A stretch of 37,967 nt of DNA from Clostridia bacterium. GTDB lineage: Bacteria; Bacillota; Clostridia; DUPQ01. The position numbers and the translations under genes are program-made. Under the pieces are notes generated by a model. That model made no database searches, was not told the origin of the DNA, and saw only the letters and a list, made by a program, of their open reading frames with translations. Position 1 is the first letter of the stretch, and each line of letters starts with the position of its first letter. The DNA is taken from contig JAUUZE010000003.1 of assembly GCA_030590175.1 (NCBI GenBank), positions 1-37,967 of the forward strand, read 5' to 3'. Of this stretch, positions 626 through 31,490 are shown in pieces.

Positions 626-654
626 TTGACACAGTGTTTATTTGATGGTAGATT
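626..654 (+). promoter_or_regulatory. Candidate sigma70 promoter for the Mrp/Mbx-like operon
   Basis: TTGACA (626-631), 17-nt spacer, TAGATT (649-654). The -10 is imperfect. Confidence 0.45.
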
Positions 655-721: not shown

Positions 722-1207
722 GTGAAAAGATATTTTTCAACATTTATACTCTGTTTTGGTGTTTGGCTTCTCTTAGCAGGAGTACAACCAGTGGAACTCA
801 TTGTTGGCGCAATCGTATCTGCGATTATCGCTTTCATAGCAAAAAGTATATTTACTTATGAACTGACTTGGAAATTCCCAGTCAATTTATTACTGTTTAT
901 TGTTTGGTACATACCAATATTTTTAGTTGAACTAATCAAAGCAAATATTGATGTTGCTATTAGAGTACTAAATCCCAAAATACCAATTAATCCAGGGTTT
1001 GTAAAAGTAGATACCAAGGTAACAAATGAACTTGGCAAATTAACATTAGCAAATTCTATTACTTTGACTCCAGGAACGATTACAGTTGATGTAGCCGAAG
1101 ATGGATTATTTGTTCATTGGATTGATGTCAAAGGAAAAGACCGCGAAGATATATCTTCACGTATTGCTGGAAAATTTGAAAAAGTGTTAAGGAGGATATT
1201 TCAATGA
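722..1207 (+). CDS. Na+/H+ antiporter subunit E (MrpE/MnhE; MbhA/MbxA-like)
   Basis: VKRYFSTFILCFGVWLLLAGVQPVELIVGAIVSAIIAF... MnhE family. GTG at 722 follows a GGGGGG RBS; the listed ATG at 689 lies inside the dyad. Confidence 0.88.
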   Translation: MKRYFSTFILCFGVWLLLAGVQPVELIVGAIVSAIIAFIAKSIFTYELTWKFPVNLLLFIVWYIPIFLVELIKANIDVAIRVLNPKIPINPGFVKVDTKVTNELGKLTLANSITLTPGTITVDVAEDGLFVHWIDVKGKDREDISSRIAGKFEKVLRRIFQ

Positions 1208-1455
1208 GTACAATTATTTTCTTATCTTTAGCAGGACTAGGTGTAGTTTTTTCTGTTTTTCGTTTAATTGTAGGGCCTACTCCATTTGATAGAATAGTAA
1301 GCCTTGATGCAATGAATATTTTAATAACTGGGTTATTAGTAGTTATTGCTTTAATACTTGATAGATCTTTATATCTTGATATTGCCATTGTTTATGCAAT
1401 TTTAGCATTTTTAGAAACTGTGGTATTTGCCAAGTTTTTGGAGGGTAAATCATGA
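1204..1455 (+). CDS. Na+/H+ antiporter subunit F (MrpF; MbhB/MbxB-like)
   Basis: RLIVGPTPFDRIVSLDAMN motif typical of MrpF. ATGA overlap with the upstream gene. Confidence 0.9.
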   Translation: MSTIIFLSLAGLGVVFSVFRLIVGPTPFDRIVSLDAMNILITGLLVVIALILDRSLYLDIAIVYAILAFLETVVFAKFLEGKS

Positions 1456-1793
1456 ATATAGCAGGAATTATTTTATTAATAGCTGGAGGCTTTTTCTATG
1501 CTATTGGTGGTCTTGGATTAGTCAGAATGCCAGATATTTATAACAGAGCACAAGCTGCGACTAAGGCTACAACTTTAGGAACAATTTTTACATTAATAGG
1601 AGTAGGGCTTTATCAACCAACTTGGTTCCCGAAACTTGCAGTTATAATTATATTTATTCTAATCACCAATCCCATAAGTAGCTCAACCTTAATAAGATCA
1701 GCTTATAAGAGTGGTGTTAAGGCAACTGATAAAACAGGTGTCGATGAATTGAAAGATTATTATGAAAAGGAGGAAAGTGATGCAAATAGTTAA
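1452..1793 (+). CDS. Na+/H+ antiporter subunit G (MrpG; MbhC/MbxC-like)
   Basis: GLVRMPDIYNRAQAATKATTLGT motif typical of MrpG. ATGA overlap. Confidence 0.92.
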   Translation: MNIAGIILLIAGGFFYAIGGLGLVRMPDIYNRAQAATKATTLGTIFTLIGVGLYQPTWFPKLAVIIIFILITNPISSSTLIRSAYKSGVKATDKTGVDELKDYYEKEESDANS

Positions 1794-2034
1794 TATTATC
1801 GAAATAGCTGTTAGTGTTTTTCTAGTATTATTTGCACTTGTAGCAGTATTTTCTAAAAACCTTATAAATAGTATTATTTTTCTATCAATCATGAGTATGT
1901 TGGCTGTTGTTGCTTTTGCATTATTTAGAGCACCTGATGTTGCGATTACTGAAGCAGTTATCGGTTCTGGTTTAATAACCTTCATTTTTATTATTACCAT
2001 AAAAACTGCGAAGAAAGCAGGTAAAGAGAAATGA
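1780..2034 (+). CDS. MbhD-like (DUF4040) hydrogenase/antiporter subunit
   Basis: NLINSIIFLSIMSMLAVVAFALFRAPDVAITEAVIGSGLITFIFI matches the MbhD/MnhA C-terminal region. Start moved to 1780 on the basis of the AGGAGG RBS. Confidence 0.82.
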   Translation: MQIVNIIEIAVSVFLVLFALVAVFSKNLINSIIFLSIMSMLAVVAFALFRAPDVAITEAVIGSGLITFIFIITIKTAKKAGKEK

Positions 2035-2774
2035 AAAAAATATTTATTGGAATCTTTGTAATTGCTTTTAGCGTAGTATTTTTACTAGCTATTTCAAATA
2101 GTGTTGATTTGTTTACGTATAATGATTCTTTATCAAGTGATAGTGTGTCAAATGGTTATATCAATAAAAACGTAACAAAAAATCAAAGTGAAGTTATTTT
2201 TAATGAAACTACTGATGCAGAAACAGGTTCTGCAAACATTGTAACTAGTATAATAGTAAATTATCGTTCTTTTGATACTTTAGGAGAGGTTACAGTTCTG
2301 TTTCTTTCTGCTATTGGAGTATCACTATTATTTGGTTCAACAGGAAAATTAGCTGAGAGGAAAAAAAGTGGTTTTATTCTACGAACAGCTGCTAGAATTA
2401 TTTTTCCAATGTTATTAGTAACAGGAACATATTTGTTTACTCATGGACATTTAACACCAGGTGGAGGTTTCCCAGGTGGTGCCATGATTGCAGCATCCTT
2501 TTTATTACTTTATTTAGCTGATGAAAAATTTGTTACAGCTATTGAGAAAATTAAACTAGTAGAAGGTAGTGCTGGTACACTTTATGTTCTTATTGGAATA
2601 ACAGGATTAGTAACTGGAGGATATTTCTTAGCAAACTTCATACCAACTGGAACAGTTGGTCAGTTAATTAGTTCAGGAATTATTCCTTTAATATACGTAT
2701 TAATTGGATTAAAGGTAGGCGCTGAAATTACTTCAGTTGTTAGCCGTTATTTACAAGAGGAGGTAACTTCATGA
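2031..2774 (+). CDS. MbhE+MnhB fusion (MbxF-like) subunit
   Basis: N-terminal NYRSFDTLGEVTVLFLSAIGVSLL (MbhE) followed by MnhB signature THGHLTPGGGFPGGAMIAASFLLLYLA. Confidence 0.87.
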   Translation: MKKIFIGIFVIAFSVVFLLAISNSVDLFTYNDSLSSDSVSNGYINKNVTKNQSEVIFNETTDAETGSANIVTSIIVNYRSFDTLGEVTVLFLSAIGVSLLFGSTGKLAERKKSGFILRTAARIIFPMLLVTGTYLFTHGHLTPGGGFPGGAMIAASFLLLYLADEKFVTAIEKIKLVEGSAGTLYVLIGITGLVTGGYFLANFIPTGTVGQLISSGIIPLIYVLIGLKVGAEITSVVSRYLQEEVTS

Positions 2775-3115
2775 TTAGAGTAGCCTCATTACTATTATTA
2801 ATGATTGGATTGTATGGATTATTATCTACTAGAAATGTTATTAAAATGATTATTTCTATTAATATCATGGAATTAGGTGTAAATATCTTTATTGTCTCCA
2901 TTGGTTTTGTTACAAATGGTGTTGCACCAATTTTAACTAGTCAGGTCAATTCATCACTTAGTAATTTTGTAGATCCTTTACCACAAGCATTAGTATTAAC
3001 ATCTATTGTTATTGGTTTAGGGATAACAGCATTAGGGTTAGCATTTGCTAGAAAGCTATACAAAAAGTATGGCACCTATGATTTAGCAAAGATAGGAGGT
3101 ATGAAAGATGAATAA
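2771..3115 (+). CDS. Na+/H+ antiporter subunit C / NuoK-like (MbhG/MbxG-like)
   Basis: LYGLLSTRNVIKMIISINIMELGVNIFIV...DPLPQALVLTSIVIGLGITALGLA, a MnhC signature. Confidence 0.92.
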   Translation: MIRVASLLLLMIGLYGLLSTRNVIKMIISINIMELGVNIFIVSIGFVTNGVAPILTSQVNSSLSNFVDPLPQALVLTSIVIGLGITALGLAFARKLYKKYGTYDLAKIGGMKDE

Positions 3116-4544
3116 TCCTGTATTATTAATTGTCATACCGTTATTATTAGCATTTTTATCTGTAATTATTAAAAAAGCAGGTAAATGGCTATTATTAGTT
3201 GGTTTACTTTTCAACACAGCATTGGCATTCTTTATTACAACGGGTGAAACTATTATTGGTGGATTTGCTCCTCCATATGGAATAAATCTTGTTGTCGATC
3301 AATTTACTTTAGTAGGAGTTATCTTAATAAACACATTAATGCTCATTACAATTGTTGTGTCATTTGATTTAGTGGGTAAATATTCCATTGTTTTATTAAC
3401 AGCATTAGCAGGTATTAATGGTATGCTTTTGACAGGTGACTTATTTAATCTGTTTGTCTTTATGGAAATTACAGTTATTGCAGCATATATTTTAAGTGCT
3501 CAAGCTAAAAAGTATCACCACACAATAACCTATTTGGTAATTGGTTCAGTTGGTTCAGTTTTATACTTGCTAGGTATTATATTATTGTATAACTTAACAG
3601 GTAGTTTAAATATGGCTGATGTAGCAGCAAAATTACCTCTATTAACTACTAAAGAACTTTTAGTTCCAGTCTTATTGATTTTCATTGGGATTGGTGTTGA
3701 AGTTAAATTAATGCCTGTAAGTGGATGGGTTAAAGGAGTTTATTCAAATGCAAATAGACTTATTGCTCCATTATTCGCATCAGTAATTGCAGGAACTGCT
3801 CTATTTGTTTTTGGTAAATTATTCGTAAGCGTCTTACCAGTTAGTGATACTTTAACATTATTAATGTTAATTATGTCAGTTATGACTTTTGTCTTTGGTG
3901 AGTTTGCAGCATTTAACCAGAAAAGAGTAAAAAACATTCTACTTTATTCAAGTATTGGACAAGCTGGTTTAGTTACTGCTTTGTTTATATCAGGTTTAGT
4001 ATATGCAGCTGTGATTTTACTAATTAGTAATGTTATTTCTAAATTAATTATGTTTACCATTGCAGGTGCTTTTACTGAAAAATATGAAACTGATGACTAT
4101 GAGTCATTAAACGGTGTATTTGTTCATAATAAATTTACTGGGATAGCATTTACAATTGCAGCTTTATCTATGGCAGGTATTCCACTATTAATTGGTTTCT
4201 ATGCTAAGCTAAATATCCTTATTGGATTTTTCCAAGCGCAGAACTATGTTCTTCCAGCAATCATTTTACTTATGGCTATAGTTGAAGGGGCATATATTAT
4301 TAAGTTATTACTAGCTCTTTGGGCACCTGGAAAAGAAGGACAAGTTTCAGAAAAATCATTTGCAGTAGAGAAAAAACAATTATTATCAGTTAAAAATACA
4401 ATAATCTGTTTAATAGTTGCCTTAGTTATTATTGCAGGTGGAGTATTAATAGATATAACAGAAAAAGTTGTAACAGATGGACAACCACTATTAGGTGATC
4501 AATCACCATCATTTACAATATCTCAAAGTAAAGGAGGGGAATAA
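3108..4544 (+). CDS. Antiporter-like subunit (MrpD/NuoN type; MbxH-like)
   Basis: Multi-TM protein with DLFNLFVFMEITVIAAYILSA (TM5 Glu) and VEVKLMP (TM7 Lys) motifs. Confidence 0.88.
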   Translation: MNNPVLLIVIPLLLAFLSVIIKKAGKWLLLVGLLFNTALAFFITTGETIIGGFAPPYGINLVVDQFTLVGVILINTLMLITIVVSFDLVGKYSIVLLTALAGINGMLLTGDLFNLFVFMEITVIAAYILSAQAKKYHHTITYLVIGSVGSVLYLLGIILLYNLTGSLNMADVAAKLPLLTTKELLVPVLLIFIGIGVEVKLMPVSGWVKGVYSNANRLIAPLFASVIAGTALFVFGKLFVSVLPVSDTLTLLMLIMSVMTFVFGEFAAFNQKRVKNILLYSSIGQAGLVTALFISGLVYAAVILLISNVISKLIMFTIAGAFTEKYETDDYESLNGVFVHNKFTGIAFTIAALSMAGIPLLIGFYAKLNILIGFFQAQNYVLPAIILLMAIVEGAYIIKLLLALWAPGKEGQVSEKSFAVEKKQLLSVKNTIICLIVALVIIAGGVLIDITEKVVTDGQPLLGDQSPSFTISQSKGGE

Positions 4545-6367
4545 TGACTTTAATTACTGTATTAATCACCCTGCTTACCTTAGCAGCAGTTACATATTTA
4601 TTATCACTTGTTAATAGCAAATTAGGAGCTTACTTTACTATTGTAACTTCACTAGCTACGATTGTTATGCTATTTTTAATAAAAGATAGTATAGGTCAAT
4701 CTTATAGCTTGTCGTTTTTCACTTTTAAATTAACAACTGTTGGATGGTATTTTTCCATGGTTATGGTGACAGTATATTTCACAACAGCTTTTCTAAATCC
4801 ATTTTGGATAAAAAAAATGATTTATCCTGCTGCATATAACTTATTCTTTTTAGTTTCATTAATTGGAACAATTGGAATGTTTTTTGCCAGAGATTTCATT
4901 ACTTTATTCATTTGTTGGGAAACAGTGGTATGGACATCTACTTTCATTATACAGATGGGAAAATCTAGAAAATCATCTTATGTATACTATGTAGTTAGTG
5001 CAATTGGTTCAATGGTAACACTTTTTGCAATGATGTTAGTTTATCAAGTTTCTGGAACATTAGAAATTTCAACAGCATTTAGTGCGCTTTCTGGACAACC
5101 AGTATTAGCTTTAATTGTATTCTTTACATTTATATTAGCTGGACTTAGTAAAATTGGTATATTCCCATTTCATGTATGGTTACCAATGGCACATGGAAGT
5201 GCTCCACATACCTTTTCACCGGTATTATCAGGTGGACTAGTAAAAATGGGAGCATTTATCGCTTATCTAAGTGTTACAGCATTTGCAGCTTATGAAGTTT
5301 TTGCTAATACATTCACTATTATGGGAATACCAGCACCTTTATACATAATTATGGTGCTTGGTGCAATTTCAATTGTTGTGGGAACAGTGATGGCCATTAG
5401 GCAAGATGATGCTAAAAAGTTATTAGCATATTCCTCTGTAGCAAATGGAGGATATATATTAATTGGAATTTTATTATATGATCAAATAGCTTTTGCAGGT
5501 GGAATGCTTCATTTAATTTCCCATGCATTAGCTTCAGCTACAGCTTTTATTACAATTGCCATAGTGGCATATCGTACTGGAACAACAAAAATGTCAGAAT
5601 TAGGTGGCATGATTCATAGAATGCCAGTAACTTATACTGTTTATTTAATTGCAATTATATCCATGGCAGGAATACCTCCAATGGGTGGATTTGTTTCTAA
5701 ATGGTTAATATTACAAGGACTTGCAGATCGTGGGTTATTATTCCTAGCGGCAGCTGCTTTCTTTGGTTCAATTGGTTCATTTATGTATGTGTTTAGACCA
5801 CTTAGTGCTGTATTCTTAGGTCAATTAGCTCCAAAATATGAAAAAATAAAAGAAGCTAATATAATGATGCAAATTCCAATGTACTTATTAACTATAGCAA
5901 CATTATTAGTTGGAGTATTCCCAAATGTTGTATTACGTGTCATAGCTGATATTCAACTTGAAGCTGGAATACAAGAAATAGTATTAGTTGGAAACACAAT
6001 TGTAGTATCAAATGGTGTATTAGACGCTTTAAGAGTATTTATTGTATTCGGATATGGTTTCTTAATTGCTTTAGTAATATTCATCTTAAGGAGAAAGAGC
6101 AGAAGGGTAACTTTAATGGATACCTATACTTCAGCTGAGTTTATTCATACACCAGAGTTATTACATTATTCAAGTAATTTTTATGCTCCTTTTGAGCGAT
6201 TAACAAAAAAACCTTATCCAGTACTTAACTTATATGAAAAAGTATCAATTAAGATAAAAGAGATTGGGCATATGGCAGAGAGCCTATTTTCAAGTTCTAA
6301 ACCGGCAATTACCATATTCTGGATTATCATTGTGTTTGCAATATTTTTCTTAGGAGGTGTTCTATAA
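4544..6367 (+). CDS. Second antiporter-like subunit (MrpA/NuoL type; MbxH'-like)
   Basis: LFICWETVVWTSTFII, GLSKIGIFPFHVWLPMAHGSAPHTFSPVLSGGLVKMG, proton-conducting transporter family. Confidence 0.9.
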   Translation: MTLITVLITLLTLAAVTYLLSLVNSKLGAYFTIVTSLATIVMLFLIKDSIGQSYSLSFFTFKLTTVGWYFSMVMVTVYFTTAFLNPFWIKKMIYPAAYNLFFLVSLIGTIGMFFARDFITLFICWETVVWTSTFIIQMGKSRKSSYVYYVVSAIGSMVTLFAMMLVYQVSGTLEISTAFSALSGQPVLALIVFFTFILAGLSKIGIFPFHVWLPMAHGSAPHTFSPVLSGGLVKMGAFIAYLSVTAFAAYEVFANTFTIMGIPAPLYIIMVLGAISIVVGTVMAIRQDDAKKLLAYSSVANGGYILIGILLYDQIAFAGGMLHLISHALASATAFITIAIVAYRTGTTKMSELGGMIHRMPVTYTVYLIAIISMAGIPPMGGFVSKWLILQGLADRGLLFLAAAAFFGSIGSFMYVFRPLSAVFLGQLAPKYEKIKEANIMMQIPMYLLTIATLLVGVFPNVVLRVIADIQLEAGIQEIVLVGNTIVVSNGVLDALRVFIVFGYGFLIALVIFILRRKSRRVTLMDTYTSAEFIHTPELLHYSSNFYAPFERLTKKPYPVLNLYEKVSIKIKEIGHMAESLFSSSKPAITIFWIIIVFAIFFLGGVL

Positions 6368-7287
6368 TGACTGTGATGAATTTTGTTTATGGCTTTATTG
6401 TCTTATTGGCAGCATTTATTTTTCAGACAGCTTTAACAGGTGTTAATAGAAAAGTAACTGCACGTATACAAAAGAGATATGGACCTAGATGGTATCAACA
6501 GTTTTTAGATATCTTCAAAGCGCTACGTAAAGGTTCAATTACTCATGGATGGGTATTTGACTTTGGTGTAATAATGGCACTTGGAGGAATTATGGCAACG
6601 GTTATTTTCATTCCTGTTGCTGGATTTGAAGCATTCCCAAATATGGATAATGTATTTGTAATTTCTTATCTACTAGCTGTTGGAATGCTAGGAATGGCTA
6701 TGAGTGCAGCAGGTTCTGGTAACCCTTGGGCAAGTATAGGTGTATCTAGAGCACTAACCAATATGGTTGCTTATGATGTTCCATTAATGATTGTAATCTT
6801 TACATTAATATTTGCCTTTGATACAGCCTCTGTATCAGAAATTGCCGCTATGCAACAAGGAATGGGTGTTCTAGGTTGGAATGCCGTTAGAATGCCTTTA
6901 GGAGGCATTGTAGCCTTTATAGCATTGTTTGGTATGTTGGGTAAAAAACCCTTTGACTCTTTCATTGCTCCTGCTGAAATTGCTTCAGGACCAATGGTAG
7001 AATATGGTGGAAAACATTTAGGATTTATGTTCATTTTACATGAACTAATGACATTTATTGAAGTATCATTAATTTTAAGTTTATTCTTTGGTGGTGGAAG
7101 TTCAATTTTAGTATATGCCATCAAATATGCAATATTATATACTCTGGTCAATATAATATCTCAGGTTATGCCTAGATTTAAAATTGATCAAGCTGTTAAA
7201 TTTTTCTACAGAGTTCCGTTAGTTTTCGCAATTATTCAGGGCTTAGTAGTCATCTTCTTAGGATGGGGGGTATCTGTATGGTTTTAG
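6367..7287 (+). CDS. NuoH-like membrane anchor (MbhM/MbxM-like)
   Basis: NRKVTARIQKRYGPRWYQQFLDIFKALRKGS...GSGNPWASIGVSRALTNMVAYDVPL...PFDSFIAPAEIASGPMVEYGGKHLGFMFI, complex I ND1/HycD family. Confidence 0.93.
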   Translation: MTVMNFVYGFIVLLAAFIFQTALTGVNRKVTARIQKRYGPRWYQQFLDIFKALRKGSITHGWVFDFGVIMALGGIMATVIFIPVAGFEAFPNMDNVFVISYLLAVGMLGMAMSAAGSGNPWASIGVSRALTNMVAYDVPLMIVIFTLIFAFDTASVSEIAAMQQGMGVLGWNAVRMPLGGIVAFIALFGMLGKKPFDSFIAPAEIASGPMVEYGGKHLGFMFILHELMTFIEVSLILSLFFGGGSSILVYAIKYAILYTLVNIISQVMPRFKIDQAVKFFYRVPLVFAIIQGLVVIFLGWGVSVWF

Positions 7288-7829
7288 AAAATCAAGATAA
7301 CAGAAACTTATGGGAAAAAATCGGTGATTTTTTCAGTGCCAACTCAATTTGGATGAAATGGTATTGTACTGGTTGTGGAGCAATTGAATTGCCTCCAACA
7401 ATGACATCACGATTTGATATGGAACGTTTAGGAATGGGGCCAATGGCTACACCTAGACAAGCAGATGTACTGCTTATTACAGGTTACTTAAGTAGCAAAA
7501 CACTAAGAAGGGTTATCTACTCTTATGAGCAGATGCAAGATCCTAAATATATTGTAGCTTTTGGTTCATGTACAATCAATGGAGGAATCTACTATGATTC
7601 CTATGCAACTATTAATCAGTTAGATAAATATATACCTGTTGATTTGTATATTGCAGGATGTATGCCACGTCCAGAAGGAATTATGAATGCTTTTGCTGAT
7701 TTAATTACCATGATAAAAAAAGGGCAAGCCAATGGATGGCGCCATTACCAAGAAAATTATGAATGGTATAAGCAAAATCAACTAGACTCATTAAAGGAGG
7801 TAATTATACATGATGAATTCCATGAATAA
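7278..7829 (+). CDS. NuoB-like small subunit (MbhJ/MbxJ-like), one [4Fe-4S]
   Basis: WYCTGCGAIELPPTMTSRFDMERLGMGPMATPRQADVLLITG...AFGSCTINGG...YIAGCMPRPE: four conserved Cys. Start set to ATG 7278 after GGGGGG RBS. Confidence 0.92.
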   Translation: MVLENQDNRNLWEKIGDFFSANSIWMKWYCTGCGAIELPPTMTSRFDMERLGMGPMATPRQADVLLITGYLSSKTLRRVIYSYEQMQDPKYIVAFGSCTINGGIYYDSYATINQLDKYIPVDLYIAGCMPRPEGIMNAFADLITMIKKGQANGWRHYQENYEWYKQNQLDSLKEVIIHDEFHE

Positions 7830-8328
7830 TATTATCAAACAAATTGATGATGTCTTAACAATTACAAATAGTGAAATTATTACCAATAGACAGTTTGCTA
7901 TTGATATAAATAGTGGCGATGTTCATCAGTCATTAGCATATTTAAAATCAATTGGATTTACTCAATTAAGTATTCTTACTTGTATTGATTTGATTGCTAA
8001 TAACGAGTTCCAATTAATCTACATTCTTAATAACTGGGAACTAGGATTGTTTGTTATAGTTAGAACCATAATACCTAGAGACAATCCAGCATTTGTTACA
8101 ATAATAAATATTTTTCCAGGTGCAAAGTATTATGAGCGAGAAGTACATGAGTTCTTTGGAGTGACCTTTGAAGGAAATGATTCCTATTCTAAACCATTAC
8201 TACTAGAAATTTGGGATGATATACCTCCACTTAGAAAAGATTTTGATCCCCAAGTATATTCAGATAGTAAGTTTCCAAAGCGTGATTTAGATAAAATATA
8301 TCGCTCTAAAATAGGAGGTGTTGACTAA
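7810..8328 (+). CDS. NuoC-like subunit (MbhK/MbxK-like)
   Basis: NPAFVTIINIFPGAKYYEREVHEFFGVTFEGND...PPLRKDFDP, complex I 30-kDa signature. Confidence 0.9.
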   Translation: MMNSMNNIIKQIDDVLTITNSEIITNRQFAIDINSGDVHQSLAYLKSIGFTQLSILTCIDLIANNEFQLIYILNNWELGLFVIVRTIIPRDNPAFVTIINIFPGAKYYEREVHEFFGVTFEGNDSYSKPLLLEIWDDIPPLRKDFDPQVYSDSKFPKRDLDKIYRSKIGGVD

Positions 8329-9438
8329 ATGAAAGAAGTAAAACTGTTTTTAGGTCCTCAGCATCCTGGAATGCATGGAAACTATAGTGTTCATATGTAT
8401 GTTGATGGAGATATAATAAAAAAAGCACGTCCTACACCTGGGTTTTTACACCGTGGTTTTGAAAAACTTATGGAGAGAAGACTTTGGATGGGTAATTTAG
8501 CTTTAATTCCTAGAATTTGTGTTGTGGAACCAGATATTAATGAAATGGTTTATGCACAAGGAATTGAAACCCTAGCTAATGTAGAAGTTCCTGAAAAAGC
8601 ACATTGGATTAGAATGTTAATTTTAGAAATGGCTCGTTTAGCTATTCATATTATGGGGTTAGGAGGCATTGGTGGACCTACTGGAATGTACACAATCACT
8701 TATTGGGCTATTGCACAGCGTGATTTGATTTTAGATTTATTTGAAGAAATAACTGGAGCTAGAGTTTATCATATGTATATTGTACCAGGTGGTGTTAGAA
8801 AGCAATTACCAGTTGGGATTTTAGATAAAGTTAGTAAGTTATTAGACGAATTAGATGTTAAAATTCCAGAGTATAAAGAATTAGCACTAAAACATCCTAT
8901 TATTCATAAACGTATTAAAGATAATATTATGTTACCAGCTGATGTTGTATGGGAACTAGGTGTAACTGGTATTGGAATGAGATCTGCAATAGGAAAAGAA
9001 TATGACCTTAGAAAAGTTCAACCATATGCTAGATATGATCAAGTTGAATTTGATGTACCAATTGCAAATTATTCAGATGGGTTAACTAGAATGAATACTA
9101 AGTATAAGGAAATTTTCCAAAGTATTAGAATTCTTAGGCAGGTTATTGAAAAAATGCCAAAAGAAGGCGAAGTTAGAACTAGAGTTTCTACTGGAAGTGC
9201 ACTGCGTTGGACAGTTCCAGCTGGAATGGTCTATTCTGCTATTGAATCAAGCAGAGGAGAATATGGATATTTCATTGTATCAGATGGAAAAGAAATGCCT
9301 TATCGTATAGCTGTTAGAGGCGCGTCTTTCCCACAGGGGCTATTAGGTATTGAAAAATATTTAGTAGGTCATAGAATTGATGATGCATCCCTTTGGATGG
9401 ATACAATGGGTGTTTGCTCACCAGAGATAGATAGGTAG
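8329..9438 (+). CDS. NuoD-like catalytic subunit with CxxE/CxxE in place of NiFe CxxC motifs (MbxL-like)
   Basis: FLGPQHPGMHGNYSVHMYVDGD...GFLHRGFEKLMERR...RICVVEPDIN...GGVRKQLP...MDTMGVCSPEIDR. Confidence 0.92.
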   Translation: MKEVKLFLGPQHPGMHGNYSVHMYVDGDIIKKARPTPGFLHRGFEKLMERRLWMGNLALIPRICVVEPDINEMVYAQGIETLANVEVPEKAHWIRMLILEMARLAIHIMGLGGIGGPTGMYTITYWAIAQRDLILDLFEEITGARVYHMYIVPGGVRKQLPVGILDKVSKLLDELDVKIPEYKELALKHPIIHKRIKDNIMLPADVVWELGVTGIGMRSAIGKEYDLRKVQPYARYDQVEFDVPIANYSDGLTRMNTKYKEIFQSIRILRQVIEKMPKEGEVRTRVSTGSALRWTVPAGMVYSAIESSRGEYGYFIVSDGKEMPYRIAVRGASFPQGLLGIEKYLVGHRIDDASLWMDTMGVCSPEIDR

Positions 9439-9446
9439 GTGATTAT

Positions 9447-11270
9447 ATGAATGAAAGAAAAAGTTTTTTTGCACCAGTAAAAGCATGGAAATATCTACTA
9501 AGAAGACCAGTTACAATACTTAAAAAAGATATTTTTGAGAATCCTAGAGAAGGTTCAGATATGTATCGTGGTTTTCATCAGAACGACTGGGATAAATGTG
9601 TTGGTTGTGGTACCTGTGAGTCTATATGTCCAACTAATGCTATTAGTATGGTTGAAATTGCATCACTAGAAATAGAAGATGGCAAAAAAAATGAGCGACC
9701 TGGTTTTGATTACGGTCGATGTTCTTTTTGTGCTCTTTGTGTTGATATATGTGTATCAGACTCATTAAAAATGTCAAAAGAATATTTACATTTATCAAAG
9801 GATGCTGAAAGTTTTTACTTTATACCAGATATTAATGGTATTCACAATAATAAAGCAAAACAAGGTTATGTTCGCGATGAAACATCTGAATTGCTTGATT
9901 TAGTGCGAGTGAAAATGGAACATGAAGATGTTAGTAGAAAAAATTCTTTCATAGAAATCGTAAAAGGTTATTCAATGGAAATGGCATTAGCTGAAAGTGC
10001 TAGATGTGTAGAATGTGGTATTTGCACTGATACATGTCCTGCTCACATGAATATACCTGAATACATTAGAAGTATTTATGAAAATGATTTAAAGGGTGCC
10101 ATAACTCATCTATATAAAACTAATCCACTATCAAACGTATGTGGACGAATTTGTACCCACTTATGTGAAGGCGCTTGTTCGTTAGCAATCAGAGGTGAAG
10201 CAATTTCAATAAGATGGTTAAAACGATATATTGTTGATAACACACCTATGGAAGATTATGAAGAGGCTGTATTATCATTTGTTACTGAACCTGTTAATGG
10301 AAAAGTAGGAATTGTAGGCTCTGGACCATCTGGTTTATCAGCAGCTTATTACTTACGTACATTAGGATATGAAGTTGATGTATATGAACAACGTGCAATA
10401 CCAGGTGGTGTTATTAGCTATGGTGGACCTGAATATAGATTACCAGAAGCTAGTGTACAAAAAGATATTTCTATGATTGAAAAAACTGGTGTTAACTTTA
10501 TTACAAATACTAAAGTTGGAACAGATATTACTCTTGCTCAACTAGAAGAAAAGTATGATGCTGTATTTTTAGGAATTGGATTTTCTTTATCTAGAAAATT
10601 AAATATTCCTGGAAACGATCATGGTGATGTGGAATATGCAATTCCATTTTTAGCGCAAACAAGAGACTATTTAAGAGATGTATCTAAAATGCCTGATATT
10701 CATGAAAAAGTTGTTGTTATTGGTGGTGGTAATGTTGCATTTGATGTTGCAAGAACATTATTAAGACTACAGATTGAAAAATATGGTAAAGCTGATGTTA
10801 AAATGGCATCATTAGAACATCGAGATATCTTACCTGCTGACTTAGAAGAGTTAGAAGAAGGGGAAGAAGAAGGAATTATTGGTAGCTTTGGGTATGGACC
10901 AGAAGAGATTGTTATTAAAAATAATAAAATTGTTGGTTTAAAAGTAAACAAAGTATTATCAATCTTTGATGAAGATAATAATTTTAACCCAAGTTATGAC
11001 AAATCTGATAGTCATGTTATAGAGGCAACACAGGTATATATTTCAACAGGACAAATGCCAGAATATGACATGATTACCGATGAAATAAAAGAAAAAATGG
11101 AAATTGTTAGAGGTAAAATAATTACTGCTGAAAATGGCCAAATTGTTAATGTTCCTTGGCTATTTGCAGGTGGTGATATTGTTAGAGGCCCTGATATTAT
11201 TAATGGGGTAGCCAATGGCCATGATTCGGCAGTTGGAATTGATAAGTATTTACAATCTAAAAAGAAATAA
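9447..11270 (+). CDS. NuoI-like 2x[4Fe-4S] ferredoxin fused to GltD/NfnB-type FAD/NAD(P) oxidoreductase
   Basis: CVGCGTCESICP and CSFCALCVDIC, then CVECGICTDTCPAHMNIPEYI...CGRICTHLCEGAC (DPYD-type Fe-S), GIVGSGPSGLSAAYYLRTLGYEVDVYE (FAD), VVVIGGGNVAFDVARTLLRL (NAD(P)). Confidence 0.93.
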   Translation: MNERKSFFAPVKAWKYLLRRPVTILKKDIFENPREGSDMYRGFHQNDWDKCVGCGTCESICPTNAISMVEIASLEIEDGKKNERPGFDYGRCSFCALCVDICVSDSLKMSKEYLHLSKDAESFYFIPDINGIHNNKAKQGYVRDETSELLDLVRVKMEHEDVSRKNSFIEIVKGYSMEMALAESARCVECGICTDTCPAHMNIPEYIRSIYENDLKGAITHLYKTNPLSNVCGRICTHLCEGACSLAIRGEAISIRWLKRYIVDNTPMEDYEEAVLSFVTEPVNGKVGIVGSGPSGLSAAYYLRTLGYEVDVYEQRAIPGGVISYGGPEYRLPEASVQKDISMIEKTGVNFITNTKVGTDITLAQLEEKYDAVFLGIGFSLSRKLNIPGNDHGDVEYAIPFLAQTRDYLRDVSKMPDIHEKVVVIGGGNVAFDVARTLLRLQIEKYGKADVKMASLEHRDILPADLEELEEGEEEGIIGSFGYGPEEIVIKNNKIVGLKVNKVLSIFDEDNNFNPSYDKSDSHVIEATQVYISTGQMPEYDMITDEIKEKMEIVRGKIITAENGQIVNVPWLFAGGDIVRGPDIINGVANGHDSAVGIDKYLQSKKK

Positions 11271-11274
11271 AAAT

Positions 11275-11310
11275 AACAAAACCTCGATATTATACGAGGT
11301 TTTGTTTTGT
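11275..11310 (+). terminator. Rho-independent terminator of the Mbx-like operon
   Basis: Perfect 12-bp stem AACAAAACCTCG / CGAGGTTTTGTT, loop ATATTATA, followed by a T-rich tail. Confidence 0.9.
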
Positions 11311-11340: not shown

Positions 11341-11363
11341 CAAATTATATGAAAGAGAGTAAT

Positions 11364-12248
11364 ATGCATACTATAAAAGCTTATCAACATACATTGAATA
11401 AAACAATCAATATACAAAACGCATTAGTTTCTTGGCAATCATATAGTGATGAGATGTATAAAATTTATAAACCCTATCTTTTAAATAAAAAAGTAATAAT
11501 AATTGGAGCAGGACATATAACAGATTTTCCAATGGAAAAAATTCTTAATCAAGTTACAAGCATTTCGCTATATGATATTGATAAAGAGGCCATGTCGTTA
11601 GGGTTAAAAGCACAAAATATTAGTAGTAATAAGGTAACCTTTATAACCAAAGATATTACATGTCTAGATGATGTTGGTTTTTATAAACAAGTAATCTTGT
11701 TATTACAAGCTAAAGATTTAGAAGGCATAAAGAGGTTTTTTAGAATAGTAAGCCATATGAACATTGATGTTTCAATCGATTCAAAATATGATTTACTTAT
11801 TATTTCTCCGTTTTATACCCAATTATTATTACCACAATACTTAGCTTATCTTAATGAATTTATTGAAGATACCCTACATAATGAGTACATAGAACCCTTA
11901 TTATCATTATTAAGTTTATTTATTGATAAAATTAATAATCAATTACTTTTTTGTCTAAATGAAAGTGGTAAAATAATTGTAATAAGTGATTACTTAGAAT
12001 TTATGCTAGATGATTCTAAGTATATTGCATTAAAAAATAAAAATAATCAATCTTCTATTGATAAATATTATGAAGATTACTTGATGAAGTATGGACAAGG
12101 GCTTGGTCCGTATGGACTAGAGGACTTAGTTGAAAAGACAAGATTAATTCATCAATCATGGCACTGGTGGCCATTTAATGGAGAAAAAGAACTTTTAGTG
12201 AAAATAGGTATTATGGGAAAAATGAAAGTAGAAGAAAATGACATATAG
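11364..12248 (+). CDS. Uncharacterised protein with methyltransferase-like Rossmann motif
   Basis: KKVIIIGAGHITDFPMEKIL...ISLYDIDKEAMSLG resembles SAM-MTase motifs I/II. Start moved from 11349 to ATG 11364 because 11349 sits about 9 nt after the -10. Confidence 0.55.
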   Translation: MHTIKAYQHTLNKTINIQNALVSWQSYSDEMYKIYKPYLLNKKVIIIGAGHITDFPMEKILNQVTSISLYDIDKEAMSLGLKAQNISSNKVTFITKDITCLDDVGFYKQVILLLQAKDLEGIKRFFRIVSHMNIDVSIDSKYDLLIISPFYTQLLLPQYLAYLNEFIEDTLHNEYIEPLLSLLSLFIDKINNQLLFCLNESGKIIVISDYLEFMLDDSKYIALKNKNNQSSIDKYYEDYLMKYGQGLGPYGLEDLVEKTRLIHQSWHWWPFNGEKELLVKIGIMGKMKVEENDI

Positions 12249-13455
12249 TGCTATTAGAAAACTATCAGGAACTTATGATGGTAAAAAGGTTACGTTGCAA
12301 TTTTATCGTTCACAGCGAGCTAGTAAATCAAATAAACCTATTGTGTTTACTATTTTTCGTCAGATTTGTAATGATTTTTTATTTGGACGTGATTATGAAG
12401 AATTTGCATATTCACTAGACATTAAAGATGCAACAGTAATTTATGAAGGAATATTACAAGTTGATGTTGATATTAGTTTTTATACGTATGAAGATAAAGA
12501 TGTAAAAGAAGGGATTACCTATGCATACTATATAGGGTCACTTTTAAATGATATTGTATATGGACCCCTATTAATTAAACCGCGAAATCAGAAATTATGG
12601 TTACCATATGAAACAATAAAAAGCGAATTATCACAATTGGCTTGTGATTATCCTGATTTAGTTAAAATATCAAACCATGGTCATTCAGTTTTAGGAAGAG
12701 ATATTGACAGTATTACAATTGGAAATCGTCAACATATTAAGCTTGGGTTTGTAGGACTTATTCATGCTGGTGAGTCAGGACCAGAGTTAATGCTTTATAC
12801 CATAAAAAAATTATTAAAGTCGCAATCTTCATTACTTAAAAAAATTGGATTATCTTTTTTAGTAAATGCTAATCCTGATCAACGAGAAAAACAAGTTAAA
12901 GGTGTACCATGGTATTTGAGAAAGAATGCAAATGGTGTGGATTTAAATAGAAATTTTGATGCACAATTTGATATAGTAGAATTAGGGTATGGCTTTAGAA
13001 CAGATGTTTTAACATCTCCTACCTATAGAGGGAAAAATCCTGAATCAGAACCTGAAACTAAAGCACTAATTGATTTTATTGAATTTGCTATGCCACAAGT
13101 TGTATTTGTTTTTCACAGTCTATCAAGTATATGTACTGATAGCTTTTTATTGTCTAAATATTCTAAAGATGATACGTTATATATTAATAAATGTATGAAG
13201 TACCTTAAACCTTATACAAAAGGGTTTGGTGTTAAAAAGAAACCTTCTATTTACTTTGGTACTAGTTATGGTTCGTTACCTCATTATCTATATAAAAAGT
13301 ATGGTATTCCTGCCTTTGATATGGAATTAGGAGAGGTAGATGATGAAACAAAACAGATGGTTATTCATGATAATGTAACTAATCAATTAATGGAATATTA
13401 TCAAGAGAGACACTATCAAGGAATAAGCGAGGTAATAAAATCATGTATATCGTAG
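12238..13455 (+). CDS. M14-family zinc carboxypeptidase-like protein
   Basis: HGHSVLGRDIDSITIG...IHAGESGPELMLY (HxxE), NANGVDLNRNFD, FDMELGE near the C-terminus. No obvious signal peptide. Confidence 0.82.
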   Translation: MTYSAIRKLSGTYDGKKVTLQFYRSQRASKSNKPIVFTIFRQICNDFLFGRDYEEFAYSLDIKDATVIYEGILQVDVDISFYTYEDKDVKEGITYAYYIGSLLNDIVYGPLLIKPRNQKLWLPYETIKSELSQLACDYPDLVKISNHGHSVLGRDIDSITIGNRQHIKLGFVGLIHAGESGPELMLYTIKKLLKSQSSLLKKIGLSFLVNANPDQREKQVKGVPWYLRKNANGVDLNRNFDAQFDIVELGYGFRTDVLTSPTYRGKNPESEPETKALIDFIEFAMPQVVFVFHSLSSICTDSFLLSKYSKDDTLYINKCMKYLKPYTKGFGVKKKPSIYFGTSYGSLPHYLYKKYGIPAFDMELGEVDDETKQMVIHDNVTNQLMEYYQERHYQGISEVIKSCIS

Positions 13456-14363
13456 ATGGTCATTGTGATACTTTGTTAGCATTACAAGAAAAAAAAGAGA
13501 CACTTAAAGAGAATTCATTACAAATTAGTCTAAATAGAATAAAAAAAACTAGTAGTGACTATTTGCAATTTTATGCAGTTTTTGTATCTCCTAGCATTAA
13601 AGGTTTAGAAGCAATTAATCAATATAAGAATATGGTTAGTATTTTACAAAATGAATGTGAAAAAAATAATATACCTAGGATATTAACAAAAAGTGATTTA
13701 AATTTTAAAGGACATGGGGCATTATTATCAGTTGAGGGTCTATATTTCCTAGATGAAAAACAAATAACTTTAGATGACTTATATAAGGATGGAGTTAGGT
13801 GTTTATCTATGACATGGAATGGTAGTAACTCATATGCTGGAGGAGTGTTAGGTAAATTATCTCATGGGCTAACTAAAAAAGGGGCGAACCTAGTTAAAAA
13901 AGCTGAAAAATTAGGAATTATTCTTGATGTATCGCACTTAGATGATAGAAGTTTTTATGATTTAAGTGAAATATCTTCTAACCCTTTTGTAGCTACTCAC
14001 TCAAATGCGCGTGCAATATGTGAAAATAGCAGAAATTTAACTGATGACATGTTAGTTACACTAAAAAAACATGGTGGTTTAGCTGGTATAAATATGTATG
14101 GACGATTTTTAAAAGAACAAGGTGATACTTCAGTAGTTGATGTAATTAGACATATTGAACATATTTGTACAGTGGCATCTGTAGATACAGTAGGTTTTGG
14201 GACTGACTTTGATGGGATACCAAGGGAACACTCAGCAATTGATAGTCCTATTGCATTAATTGCTGTTTTAGAGCAATTAGCGATACTTAATTATACACAA
14301 GAGCAAATTGATAAAATCGCTGGTGGTAACTATTTACGTGTCTTAACAAGAGTGCTTAAATAA
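13443..14363 (+). CDS. Membrane dipeptidase-like (M19, renal dipeptidase family)
   Basis: VDGHCDTL, LDVSHLDDRSFYDL, ATHSNARAICENSRNLTDDML, GFGTDFDGIP. Confidence 0.92.
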   Translation: MYIVDGHCDTLLALQEKKETLKENSLQISLNRIKKTSSDYLQFYAVFVSPSIKGLEAINQYKNMVSILQNECEKNNIPRILTKSDLNFKGHGALLSVEGLYFLDEKQITLDDLYKDGVRCLSMTWNGSNSYAGGVLGKLSHGLTKKGANLVKKAEKLGIILDVSHLDDRSFYDLSEISSNPFVATHSNARAICENSRNLTDDMLVTLKKHGGLAGINMYGRFLKEQGDTSVVDVIRHIEHICTVASVDTVGFGTDFDGIPREHSAIDSPIALIAVLEQLAILNYTQEQIDKIAGGNYLRVLTRVLK

Positions 14364-14371
14364 TAAAATTA

Positions 14372-14380
14372 TGGTACAAT
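14372..14380 (+). promoter_or_regulatory. Extended -10 element upstream of nadE
   Basis: TGG-TACAAT about 15 nt upstream of the nadE start. Confidence 0.35.
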
Positions 14381-14394
14381 ACCCATGAGGTATT

Positions 14395-16314
14395 ATGATG
14401 AATTATGGATATGTCAAAGTAGGGACCTACTCACCAGAAATGAAAATTGCAAATTGTCAGTACAATAGTGCTGTCATAATAAAAGCTGTAAAAGAATATG
14501 ATGGACAACTATCATATTTGCTTTTTCCAGAACTTAGTGTAACAGGGTATTCTTGTGGAGATTTGTTCTTTTCACAGCATTTATTAGATCAAGCGCAATT
14601 ACAATTAGAAAATATTTCTAAAAGCACCAAATATAGCAACATGGTTATTATATTTGGAATGCCAATACGTCACAAAAATCAATTATTTAATGTGGCAATT
14701 GTTATGCAATCAGGAAAAATACTAGGTGTAGTTCCAAAATCATATATACCAAACTATGCTGAGTTTTACGAAGAACGATGGTTTTCATCAGGAAAAGATC
14801 TTAATGAAAGTATCTCACTACTTGGCAATGATGTTCCTTTTTCGCCTAATACAATATTTAAAGCAATAGGTAATGAGAAAGCTTCTTTTGCCATTGAAAT
14901 ATGTGAAGATTTATGGGCAGGTATTCCACCTAGTTCATATCATGTTAAAAAAGGTGCTCATATGATTTTTAACTTGTCTGCTAGTAATGAACTAGTTGGT
15001 AAGGTAGATTATAGAAAGCAATTAGTTATAGGGCAGTCAGCTAGTGGGATATGTGGCTATATTTATTGTTCAGCGGGTCCTAATGAATCATCTACTGATT
15101 TGGTATATGGTGGTCACACATTAATAGCTGAAAATGGTAGATTACTTGCTAAAGGGAAACGATTCTCATTTGAATCAACAATAACTATAGGTGAGATTGA
15201 TTTATCACTATTAGCCCATGATCGTATGAAAAATACAGTATATATGGAAGATGATATTTCACTATCTTATCAATATGCTTCATATAATTTAGAAGAGTTA
15301 ACTATTACAAAACTAATAAGACAAATAAATAAAACACCTTTTGTACCATCAGATGAAAGAAAACTACATCAAAGATGTGAAGAGATATTTGCAATACAAG
15401 CAACTGGATTGGCCAGAAGAATTAGCCACATTGGTTGTAAAAAAGTAGTTTTGGCCATTTCAGGAGGTTTAGATTCCACCTTAGCCTTATTAGTAACAAA
15501 TAAAGCATTTGAAAAACTTGGGTTGGATAAAAAAGGTATTATTGCAATTACTATGCCAGGTTTTGGTACTACTAATAGGACATATGATAATGCTGTGGCA
15601 TTAATTAAAGAAGTGGGAGCTACTTTTAGAGAAATTGACATTAAAAAAGCGTGTTTATCTCATTTTGAAGATATAGGACATGACCCATCAATTCATGATA
15701 CTACATATGAAAATGTACAAGCTAGAGAACGTTATCAAATCGCCATGGATATCGCTAATAAAGAAAATGGTATTGTGGTAGGTACTGGTGATTTAAGTGA
15801 ATTAGCACTTGGATGGTGTACATATAATGGAGATCATATGTCTATGTATAACGTCAATTGTTCTATACCAAAAACACTTGTTAAATATTTAATTGATTAT
15901 GTTAAAAATTTCGAAGTTGATAAACATGCAAGTAATATTTTATCTAGTATAATGGACACTCCTATATCACCTGAACTATTACCACCAGATAATGATGGAA
16001 ATATATCTCAAAAAACAGAGGATATTTTAGGACCTTATGAAGTCCATGATTTTTACTTATATAACATGATAAGAAAAGGATTTAGCCCTAAAAAATTATT
16101 ATTCTTAGGAAAACAAGCTTTCTTAGAAGTGTATCATGAAGATGATTTGAAGAAGTGGCTAATAATTTTCATAAAACGATTTTTTACTCATCAATTTAAA
16201 CGTTCTTGTATTCCTGATGGTCCAAAAGTTGGTTCTATTAATTTATCTCCAAGAGGAGATTGGAGAATGCCATCTGACGTCAGTGCAAAATCTTGGCTTG
16301 ATGAATTGGAGTAA
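14395..16314 (+). CDS. nadE: Glutamine-dependent NAD(+) synthase
   Basis: N-terminal nitrilase-type amidase (LLFPELSVTGYSCGDLF, ICEDLW) and C-terminal synthetase (LAISGGLDSTLALLV, GTGDLSELALGWCTYNGDHMSMYNVN). Confidence 0.95.
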   Translation: MMNYGYVKVGTYSPEMKIANCQYNSAVIIKAVKEYDGQLSYLLFPELSVTGYSCGDLFFSQHLLDQAQLQLENISKSTKYSNMVIIFGMPIRHKNQLFNVAIVMQSGKILGVVPKSYIPNYAEFYEERWFSSGKDLNESISLLGNDVPFSPNTIFKAIGNEKASFAIEICEDLWAGIPPSSYHVKKGAHMIFNLSASNELVGKVDYRKQLVIGQSASGICGYIYCSAGPNESSTDLVYGGHTLIAENGRLLAKGKRFSFESTITIGEIDLSLLAHDRMKNTVYMEDDISLSYQYASYNLEELTITKLIRQINKTPFVPSDERKLHQRCEEIFAIQATGLARRISHIGCKKVVLAISGGLDSTLALLVTNKAFEKLGLDKKGIIAITMPGFGTTNRTYDNAVALIKEVGATFREIDIKKACLSHFEDIGHDPSIHDTTYENVQARERYQIAMDIANKENGIVVGTGDLSELALGWCTYNGDHMSMYNVNCSIPKTLVKYLIDYVKNFEVDKHASNILSSIMDTPISPELLPPDNDGNISQKTEDILGPYEVHDFYLYNMIRKGFSPKKLLFLGKQAFLEVYHEDDLKKWLIIFIKRFFTHQFKRSCIPDGPKVGSINLSPRGDWRMPSDVSAKSWLDELE

Positions 16315-16318
16315 TTAA

Positions 16319-17308
16319 ATGGATATAATAACTATCAGATTAAGTGATAATAAACTGATTATGTTAGATCAAAGAAAATTACCGTTAGAAATTTCATATT
16401 ACATTGCTAAAACTAAAGAAGAAGTTTTTTATGCTATTAAAGAAATGGTTGTAAGAGGTGCACCGCTAATTGGTGTAACCGCAGCTTATGGTATGTATAT
16501 TTCATATTTAAATGGTGAAAACTTAGAAGAAGTTGCAGATTATCTAGCTAAAGCAAGACCAACTGCTGTTAATCTTACATGGGCAATTGATAAAATGATG
16601 AAGGCTCATTATGAAGAACGAGGTCTTTTAGAACAAGCAAAAGCAATACATCAAGAAGATGTGGATACGAATTTTTCTATTGGTAATCATTTAATAAAAT
16701 TATTAGGGAAGAAGCGTAATATTTTAACACATTGTAATGCAGGTATATTAGCTACAACAAAATATGGGACAGCTACTTCACCATTTTATATTGGAAAAGA
16801 TTTAGGTATAAATTACAAAGTTTATGCAGATGAAACTAGGCCACGATTACAAGGTGCTAGCTTAACAGCTTTTGAATTAATGGAATCAGGAATTGATGTA
16901 ACTGTTATTACTGATAATATGGCAGCCTATCTAATGAGCAAAGGTTTAATTGAAGCTGTTATTACAGGTTGTGATAGAGTAGCTGCAAATGGTGATGTAG
17001 CAAATAAAATTGGTACATTAAATGTATCTATTATTGCTAAATATTATAATATTCCCATGTATATTGCTGCACCTTCATCAACTATTGATATGTCTCTAAA
17101 AAGTGGTGAGTTAATACCTATTGAAGAGCGAGAGTCTTGGGAAGTTACTAGTCGTTTTGGTAAACAAATGACACCTAATGAGACTAAAGTCCTAAATCCT
17201 GCATTTGATATAACACCAGCTTGTAATATAACCGCTATTGTTACTGAAAAAGGGATAATCTATCCACCATATAGTAAAAACCTAAAGGAGCAATATGAAC
17301 AAAGTTGA
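16319..17308 (+). CDS. mtnA: S-methyl-5-thioribose-1-phosphate isomerase-like
   Basis: MVVRGAPLIGVTAAYG, RPTAVNLTWAID, THCNAGILATTKYGTA, ADETRPRLQGA, VITGCDRVAANGDVANKIGT. Confidence 0.93.
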   Translation: MDIITIRLSDNKLIMLDQRKLPLEISYYIAKTKEEVFYAIKEMVVRGAPLIGVTAAYGMYISYLNGENLEEVADYLAKARPTAVNLTWAIDKMMKAHYEERGLLEQAKAIHQEDVDTNFSIGNHLIKLLGKKRNILTHCNAGILATTKYGTATSPFYIGKDLGINYKVYADETRPRLQGASLTAFELMESGIDVTVITDNMAAYLMSKGLIEAVITGCDRVAANGDVANKIGTLNVSIIAKYYNIPMYIAAPSSTIDMSLKSGELIPIEERESWEVTSRFGKQMTPNETKVLNPAFDITPACNITAIVTEKGIIYPPYSKNLKEQYEQS

Positions 17309-18038
17309 TATAAATTGTGATATGGGTGAAGGTGGATTATTTGATGAATCCATTATGAAATATATTAAAAGTGCAAATATTGCCTGTGGATATCATGCAG
17401 GTAATGAAGAAATAATGAAAAAAACAATTTATATGGCAAAGGAACAAAATGTTATTGTAGGCGCACACCCTGGGTATGATGATTTAGAAAATTTTGGTCG
17501 TAAAGAATTAAATTATGAATACGATTTAGTTATTGCCATTGTGCTTCAACAATTACATACATTTTATAAAATAGCCTGTGCAGAAGGTGCAAGTATGGCT
17601 TATGTGAAATTACATGGAGCCTTATACAATAGAGTAGCAGATGATGATAAATTAGCAGAAAAATTGCTTTACTATATAACCTTAGAATATCCTGGAATTT
17701 CTTTTTTATCATTAGCGTTATCTCCAATGCAACGTGTTGCAGAGAAAATGGGGATTTCTTGTTATCATGAAGTATTTGCAGATCGTGCATATGAAAATGA
17801 TGGTACATTAGTTTCTAGAAGCAAAAAGGGCGCAATTATTACTGATGTAGATGATGTGAAAAAGCGAGTATATCAGATGGTATCAGAGCAAACAGTAAAT
17901 AGTATTAACTTAAAAGACATTCCAATTATTTGTCAATCAATATGTGTTCACGGTGACTCTTTACAAGCGCTATCTTTGTGTCAGGGTATTTATGAACATC
18001 TATCATTAAAAGGAGTAATTATTGAAAGTTACATGTGA
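17295..18038 (+). CDS. pxpA: 5-oxoprolinase subunit A (LamB/YcsF family)
   Basis: VDINCDMGEGG, SANIACGYHAGNEE, VGAHPGYDDLENFGRKEL, VKLHGALYN, CVHGDS. Confidence 0.95.
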   Translation: MNKVDINCDMGEGGLFDESIMKYIKSANIACGYHAGNEEIMKKTIYMAKEQNVIVGAHPGYDDLENFGRKELNYEYDLVIAIVLQQLHTFYKIACAEGASMAYVKLHGALYNRVADDDKLAEKLLYYITLEYPGISFLSLALSPMQRVAEKMGISCYHEVFADRAYENDGTLVSRSKKGAIITDVDDVKKRVYQMVSEQTVNSINLKDIPIICQSICVHGDSLQALSLCQGIYEHLSLKGVIIESYM

Positions 18039-18675
18039 ATATGCAAAGATGGGAAGTAATCATGTATTTGTGCGATTTTCTCATGTGATAGATAAATTAA
18101 TTAATCAACAAATTCGCCAGGTATATCAAACACTGATTACAAAACAACCACTAGGGTTTATTGAAGCATATTTTGCTTATGGCAGCTTAACTGTTCAATT
18201 TGATTTAACAATTACTACTTATAAAGCCATGAAAAAAGCTATTTCTCTTATTATTAGTGATACAACTATAACGAAAGTTACAAGTGGAAATGAAGTTATT
18301 ATTCCAGTTACTTATAATAACGAAACAGGACTTGATTTAGATTATGCAAGTGATTACTTAAAATTATCAAAAGATGAAATTATTGATATTCATAGCAGTG
18401 GCCAATATTTGGTATATATGATTGGTTTTTTACCTGGGTTTTGTTATTTAGGTGGGCTAGACAAAAGAATCCATATACCAAGAAAAAAGACACCGCGATT
18501 AATAGTACCAAAAGGAAGTGTGGGCATAGCAGCTTCACAAACGGGTGTATATCCTTTAGATAGTCCAGGAGGTTGGCAGATTATTGGTCGAACAAACCTA
18601 AAACTATATAAACCATATGACAAATCGCCATTCTTAATACTACCAGGTGACAAAGTGAGGTTTATTAAAAAATGA
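18022..18675 (+). CDS. pxpB: 5-oxoprolinase subunit B (KipI-like)
   Basis: YMIGFLPGFCYLGGLDKRIHIPRKKTPRLIVPKGSVGIAASQTGVYPLDSPGGWQIIGRT. TTG start with AAAGGAG RBS. Confidence 0.95.
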   Translation: MKVTCEYAKMGSNHVFVRFSHVIDKLINQQIRQVYQTLITKQPLGFIEAYFAYGSLTVQFDLTITTYKAMKKAISLIISDTTITKVTSGNEVIIPVTYNNETGLDLDYASDYLKLSKDEIIDIHSSGQYLVYMIGFLPGFCYLGGLDKRIHIPRKKTPRLIVPKGSVGIAASQTGVYPLDSPGGWQIIGRTNLKLYKPYDKSPFLILPGDKVRFIKK

Positions 18676-31243: not shown

Positions 31244-31259
31244 ATTTTACAGTAAAATG

Positions 31260-31490
31260 CGATGAATAAGACAAGTAATATCTAACGACTATTAAGGGAA
31301 TTAATACATTTACTGAGAGTATTAAATAGATCGATTTATGAACATTCACTTAGGAGCAAATGTCACTGAAATAATGTAGGGGACATCGTAATAAGACACG
31401 ATATAGTCTGTTAAGAAGTCAATTTATTGAAAATTGGGTGGTACCGCGGAGAATCCCTTCGTCCCTTGCTGGATGGAGGGTTTTTATATT
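31260..31490 (+). promoter_or_regulatory. T-box leader riboswitch upstream of pheST (Phe-type)
   Basis: T-box core GGGTGGTACCGCGG (31436-31449), stem I closing CGATG (31260-31264)/CATCG (31384-31388), leader terminator CCCTTCGTCC-CTTGCT-GGATGGAGGG plus T-tract (31455-31490). Candidate UUC specifier at 31345-31347 (inference). Confidence 0.92.

Follow-up and report, generated by a model that had tools for sequence, protein, structure and literature searches.

A 37,967-nucleotide stretch of a Clostridia bacterium genome (GTDB lineage DUPQ01; contig JAUUZE010000003.1 of assembly GCA_030590175.1), hereafter the window, carries a 13-gene operon on its forward strand (722..11270) that, judging from gene order, motifs and a large-subunit tree, near certainly encodes a bacterial ion pump of the Mbx/Mbs type, to which the sulfane reductase MBS of Pyrococcus furiosus belongs. 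Its last subunit, MbxN, is a NuoI-like iron-sulfur protein fused to a flavoprotein module that is predicted to be specific for NAD(H). The favoured reading, which we hold at slightly less than an even chance, is that NADH, perhaps together with ferredoxin, feeds the reduction of sulfane or disulfide sulfur at the MBS-type site; we infer the donor, the acceptor and the direction of flow. The genome (1.9 Mb in 190 contigs, 77% complete) has the window as its contig 121.

A bacterial operon in mbs/mbx order

The 13 open reading frames are contiguous, lie on one strand and overlap or nearly do so. Each is a strong match to its expected family (Pfam/NCBIfam-type profiles), in the order MNHE, MrpF, PhaG/MnhG, MbhD, MbhE+MnhB, Oxidored_q2, two Proton_antipo_M, NADHdh, Oxidored_q6, Complex1_30kDa, Complex1_49kDa and NuoI+Fer4_20+Pyr_redox_2. 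A preliminary description made from the sequence had given the same arrangement, and had recognized in it an Mrp module with two antiporter-like subunits and no NuoEFG genes; profile matches and the reading-frame list bear out each of these points. The gene order is exactly that of mbs/mbx, ABCDEGHH'MJKLN, with all 13 subunits present. The same order is complete in two related loci (L010 and L015) and is kept in four others (L011, L016, L017 and L009) as far as the contig or the compared stretch extends.

The operon opens with the Mrp-like genes mbxA (MrpE-like, 722..1207), mbxB (MrpF-like, 1204..1455) and mbxC (MrpG-like, 1452..1793), followed by mbxD (MbhD, 1762..2034), mbxE (a fusion of MbhE and MnhB, 2031..2774) and mbxG (MrpC/NuoK-like, 2771..3115). 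The GTG start of mbxA at 722 lies behind an AGGGGGG Shine-Dalgarno sequence and is a better start than the alternative, an in-frame ATG at 689. Two antiporter-like subunits, mbxH (3108..4544) and mbxH' (4544..6367, with a C-terminal extension), precede the NuoH-like membrane anchor mbxM (6367..7287), which is followed by mbxJ (NuoB-like, 7263..7829), mbxK (NuoC-like, 7810..8328), mbxL (NuoD-like, 8329..9438) and the fused mbxN gene (9447..11270).

Nine subunits (C, D, G, H, H', M, J, L and N) were compared with solved structures. Among complex I-like chains, P. furiosus MBS (6u8y) was the best solved match for all but MbxN, whose first 118 residues match MbsN. The residues of the Na+ path and the composite proton path, MbsC P83, MbsD E58 and MbsG E37, are retained. 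MbxL carries RICV...CSPEID as MbsL does, where hydrogenases have R(I/V)CGIC...DPCxxC and complex I has RxDY...GEVD, and it thus retains exactly the two of four nickel-iron (NiFe) cysteines that MBS retains. In MbxJ, the alignment with MbsJ is free of gaps across CTGC (MbsJ C25/C28), the MBS-type proximal cluster motif. In MBS, the motif so shortened leaves one iron of the cluster without a cysteine ligand, and catalysis takes place at this cluster (PMC7684303). In a tree of 31 large subunits, MbxL of the window and of its relatives grouped with MbsL (100/99 support), apart from Nuo, Mbh, HycE and Ech, with long-branch warnings attached. The assignment to the Mbx/Mbs type, as distinct from Ech and Nuo, had been proposed beforehand and is upheld by the motifs, the structure matches and the tree.

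An H2-evolving hydrogenase of the Mbh/Ech type would have the Mrp-derived membrane arm in common with this complex, but the other two NiFe cysteines are absent from MbxL, in keeping with the earlier statement that there is no NiFe site, and the tree does not place MbxL inside H2-evolving Mbh. Membership of the NiFe hydrogenases is ruled out on these grounds, and we give hydrogen evolution practically no chance. Membership of complex I (Nuo) is likewise ruled out, by the cysteine motifs and the tree. MbxJ has CxxC rather than the adjacent CC of complex I, and the quinone-binding tyrosine is absent from MbxL. The quinone histidine is present, as the HxxxHG motif (HPGMHG), in MbxL of the window, L010, L011, L016 and L017. 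This histidine and the NADH-type input module could speak for an NADH:quinone oxidoreductase akin to complex I whose NADH module is unusual, a reading that the missing tyrosine, the MBS cysteines and the grouping with MbsL make very improbable. The prenyltransferase UbiA was not found in this genome (77% complete) or in most carriers, which is suggestive only, as the genomes are incomplete; a quinone is an unlikely acceptor because of this absence.

The fused flavoprotein and the altered pump subunits

The fused MbxN is encoded in a single uninterrupted frame of 607 codons and matches NCBIfam NF010590/PRK13984 over its full length (residues 4-606 to profile positions 8-610 of 611), so the fusion noted in the preliminary description is real and not an accident of assembly. 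Its NuoI/MbsN part holds two 4Fe-4S motifs (residues 51-61 and 92-102). The flavoprotein module that follows, of about 450-490 residues, is of the NfnB/GltD type, with cysteine motifs at 187-197 and 232-244 and domains for flavin adenine dinucleotide (FAD) and NAD. By sequence, its best solved relatives are Nfn and the related enzymes NfnABC and Stn. An AlphaFold model of the whole protein was weak (mean pLDDT, the predicted local distance difference test, 57.8, with the NuoI part below 50) and supports the Nfn fold of the second half only, as found by fold comparison.

The module shares the layout of Fer4_20, FAD and NAD(P) domains with NfnB/NfnL, StnC, GltD and DsrL, but differs from them in lying behind NuoI and in several residues. 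The YRR motif in the second Rossmann fold of NfnB, which holds the NADP phosphate, is replaced by xLE ([SAIV]LE) in all homologues, and reads SLE at 455-457 in the window protein. In the related DsrL enzymes, kinetics tie YRR to NADP(H), and tie other residues in its place to NAD(H) (PMC7596348). On the strength of this precedent and of the xLE motif, the module is predicted to be NAD(H)-specific; of the 'NAD(P)' cofactor suggested earlier, the nicotinamide nature stands and the NADP option falls away.

The residues around the clusters and the flavin bear on whether the NfnB-type FAD could bifurcate or confurcate, splitting or combining electrons among NADH, ferredoxin and an acceptor in the chamber. 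The nearest solved relatives of the module are bifurcating enzymes (Nfn, NfnABC and Stn), and the arginine linked to the low-potential FAD in Nfn and Stn is retained (R331). The operon, however, has no NfnA-like partner with a second flavin for the high-potential branch. The glutamate ligand of the proximal cluster in NfnB is a lysine here, and an extra invariant cysteine, C232, is present, so the cluster environment differs; in addition, the non-bifurcating enzymes DPD and GltD have the same layout. Bifurcation is accordingly judged improbable.

The membrane arm departs from that of MBS in two subunits, as seen in six genomes from three families (MbsH numbering). MbxH retains E138, E219 and K393 in the window, but its central lysine is lost in all six genomes (K250 to G, P or L; G in the window), as is its histidine (H330 to L, V or Q; L in the window), whereas all five pump residues are kept in MbxH' and both MbsH and MbsH' of P. 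furiosus have theirs. Since MrpD of a plain Mrp antiporter retains both the lysine and the histidine in the alignment, the loss in MbxH looks derived, and the MbxH channel looks disabled by these substitutions. In MbxM, the MbsM-type residues E104 and E193 have given way to A and K, respectively, in six of six genomes.

Proposed electron flow through the complex

Across the complex I superfamily, pumping is driven by electrons whose path ends in the chamber between the L, J and M subunits, and NuoI lies where they enter (PMC7684303). A flavin carried by NuoI would for that reason more probably feed electrons in than draw them out, and the intact motif of the MBS cluster indicates sulfane or disulfide reduction as the terminal step. 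In the proposed mechanism, the NfnB-type FAD module on the MbsN-like subunit would be the electron-input end, an addition that MbsN of P. furiosus does not have. NADH, possibly along with reduced ferredoxin docking at the NuoI part, would reduce the FAD, and from there electrons would pass through two NfnB-type and two NuoI-type 4Fe-4S clusters, as placed by their motifs, to the presumably three-cysteine proximal cluster of MbxJ. As in P. furiosus MBS, this cluster would reduce sulfane sulfur or a di- or polysulfide inside the MbxL/J/M chamber, and the arriving electrons would power the Mrp-type Na+/H+ module along with MbxH', the only intact proton channel; MbxH, the second channel, looks disabled, in keeping with a smaller energy drop.

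Sequence alone cannot decide between NADH-fed sulfane reduction and a Na+-pumping ferredoxin:NAD+ oxidoreductase, and the first is favoured. Several points nevertheless weigh against it. Near standard conditions, the transfer of electrons from NADH to polysulfide releases hardly any energy and leaves little for pumping, so a contribution from ferredoxin or an acceptor of higher potential, such as a disulfide, would be needed. No sulfur gene was shown in the operon neighbourhood, and no biochemistry was found for any fusion-bearing member. The HxxxHG histidine of the window-group MbxL is shared with complex I and absent from MbsL, though G252 lacks it too. Retention of R331, lastly, may leave room for bifurcation or reverse flow.

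In the competing scheme, an energy-converting ferredoxin:NAD+ oxidoreductase, electrons would run from ferredoxin through the fused flavin to NAD+, coupled to Na+/H+ export, and the complex would be a second Rnf-like coupling site. We regard it as a serious possibility, though a less probable one. The fusion of an NAD-type flavin module to NuoI fits it, as does a redox span that is ample for pumping. The same role has been proposed for bacterial mbx (PMC3608648, PMC4596419), and in Thermoanaerobacter mbx and Rnf are complementary between clades. If they both entered and left on NuoI, however, electrons would never reach the J/L/M chamber, which drives pumping in the studied relatives, and the MBS-type catalytic-cluster motif would be left without a function. 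The P. furiosus archetype of the proposal was moreover later shown to be a sulfane reductase (PMC7684303).

The presence of Rnf alongside Mbx also tells against this scheme, and counts for NADH-fed sulfane reduction, as Rnf already serves the ferredoxin:NAD+ reaction in the same genomes. The genome of the window has a complete rnfCDGEAB cluster (L013), and RnfC was found in eight of nine Mbx-carrying genomes, the ninth being 89% complete. The suggestion in the preliminary description that the complex functionally replaces Rnf is contradicted by these findings. Apart from MbxL, the genome, at 77% completeness, yielded no PF00346 protein, and hence no sign of a NiFe group 4 enzyme or of Nuo.

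A more specific version of NADH-fed sulfane reduction would take in the altered pump. Loss of the MbxH residues would fit an energy drop smaller than that from ferredoxin to sulfur, and the complex could be a geared-down MBS, a Na+-translocating sulfane/disulfide reductase fed by NADH in which one proton channel is off, through the lost lysine and histidine, to match the smaller drop from NADH. We consider this combined proposal doubtful.

Distribution, genomic setting and implications

The fused protein was found in nine genomes. Of 399 genomes sampled from the phylum 4 have it, as do 6 of 292 sampled from the class, all six belonging to the window's own family, and it is absent from 5 of 11 sampled members of that family; this patchy spread suggests gain by transfer or repeated loss. 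A scan of named genomes brought up three close relatives, along with a single stray match that was short. Among 14 control genomes, Thermotoga maritima was the sole match, with a score above the curated NF010590 cut-off (946 bits), whereas the window protein scores 878 bits. Judged by the family profile, T. maritima has the same fused NuoI-flavoprotein family, and like the genome of the window it has both Mbx and Rnf. Its Mbx has 13 subunits, a sulfur role has been proposed for it, and mbxA is up 4.36-fold on S0 (PMC9431562), a response that counts for sulfane or disulfide reduction. Archaea and Thermotoga are reported to have exchanged the mbx operon by transfer (PMC2246101).

Thermoanaerobacter clade 3 and Caldanaerobacter subterraneus yonseiensis have a comparable 13-gene bacterial mbx cluster, for which a ferredoxin:NAD(P) oxidoreductase role is put forward in PMC3608648 (Thermoanaerobacter) and PMC4596419 (Caldanaerobacter). 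In Thermoanaerobacter, mbx and Rnf sit in different clades, whereas here they occur together in the same genomes. The combination is therefore already known: NCBIfam has an entry for the fused protein, to which no function has been assigned, and the ferredoxin:NAD(P) role of bacterial mbx is in print. A literature search, with most subscription papers outside its reach, found no report on Mbx that describes the fusion, the xLE motif or the loss of pump residues.

The operon is preceded by a promoter-like TTGACA-17-TAGATT with a TG extension (626..654, +), a consensus match only, and is closed by a terminator-like hairpin of 12 pairs (11275..11306, +). Beyond the hairpin lies a conserved linked gene, separated by it from mbx, for a 299-residue protein (11349-12248, +) that has no Pfam or NCBIfam match. 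Homologues stand directly downstream of the fused flavoprotein in L010 and L009 (68-70%), in L016 of another family (30%) and in L011 (26%), and an AlphaFold model (pLDDT 73.5) weakly resembles S-adenosylmethionine-dependent methyltransferases. A peptide and pyroglutamate utilisation stretch follows (12238-19526, +), with M14 carboxypeptidase, M19 dipeptidase, NAD synthetase-like and 5-oxoprolinase-like genes, and is found in the same order downstream of mbx in L010. Further along, a T-box leader (31253-31469, +) lies immediately upstream of phenylalanyl-tRNA synthetase-like genes. Elsewhere, the genome encodes a NuoE/NuoF/HydA-type [FeFe] hydrogenase cluster (L014), two further [FeFe] hydrogenase genes and two V-type ATPase clusters, L021 (G000:C164) and L022 (G000:C22). 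The c subunit of L021 has a PSTQG motif, which we take to resemble that of Na+-binding V-type rings; that of L022 is without it.

The earlier proposal that bacterial Mbx acts as a ferredoxin:NAD(P) oxidoreductase can now be tested directly, the predicted partner being NAD and not NADP. The ion stoichiometry of the complex I superfamily has yet to be settled, and a complex of this architecture, in which one pump is missing its central residues and the donor module has changed, is a natural experiment relating pump number to redox span. If it is indeed a geared-down MBS, the complex would represent a relative of complex I whose NADH-input module has no kinship with NuoEFG.

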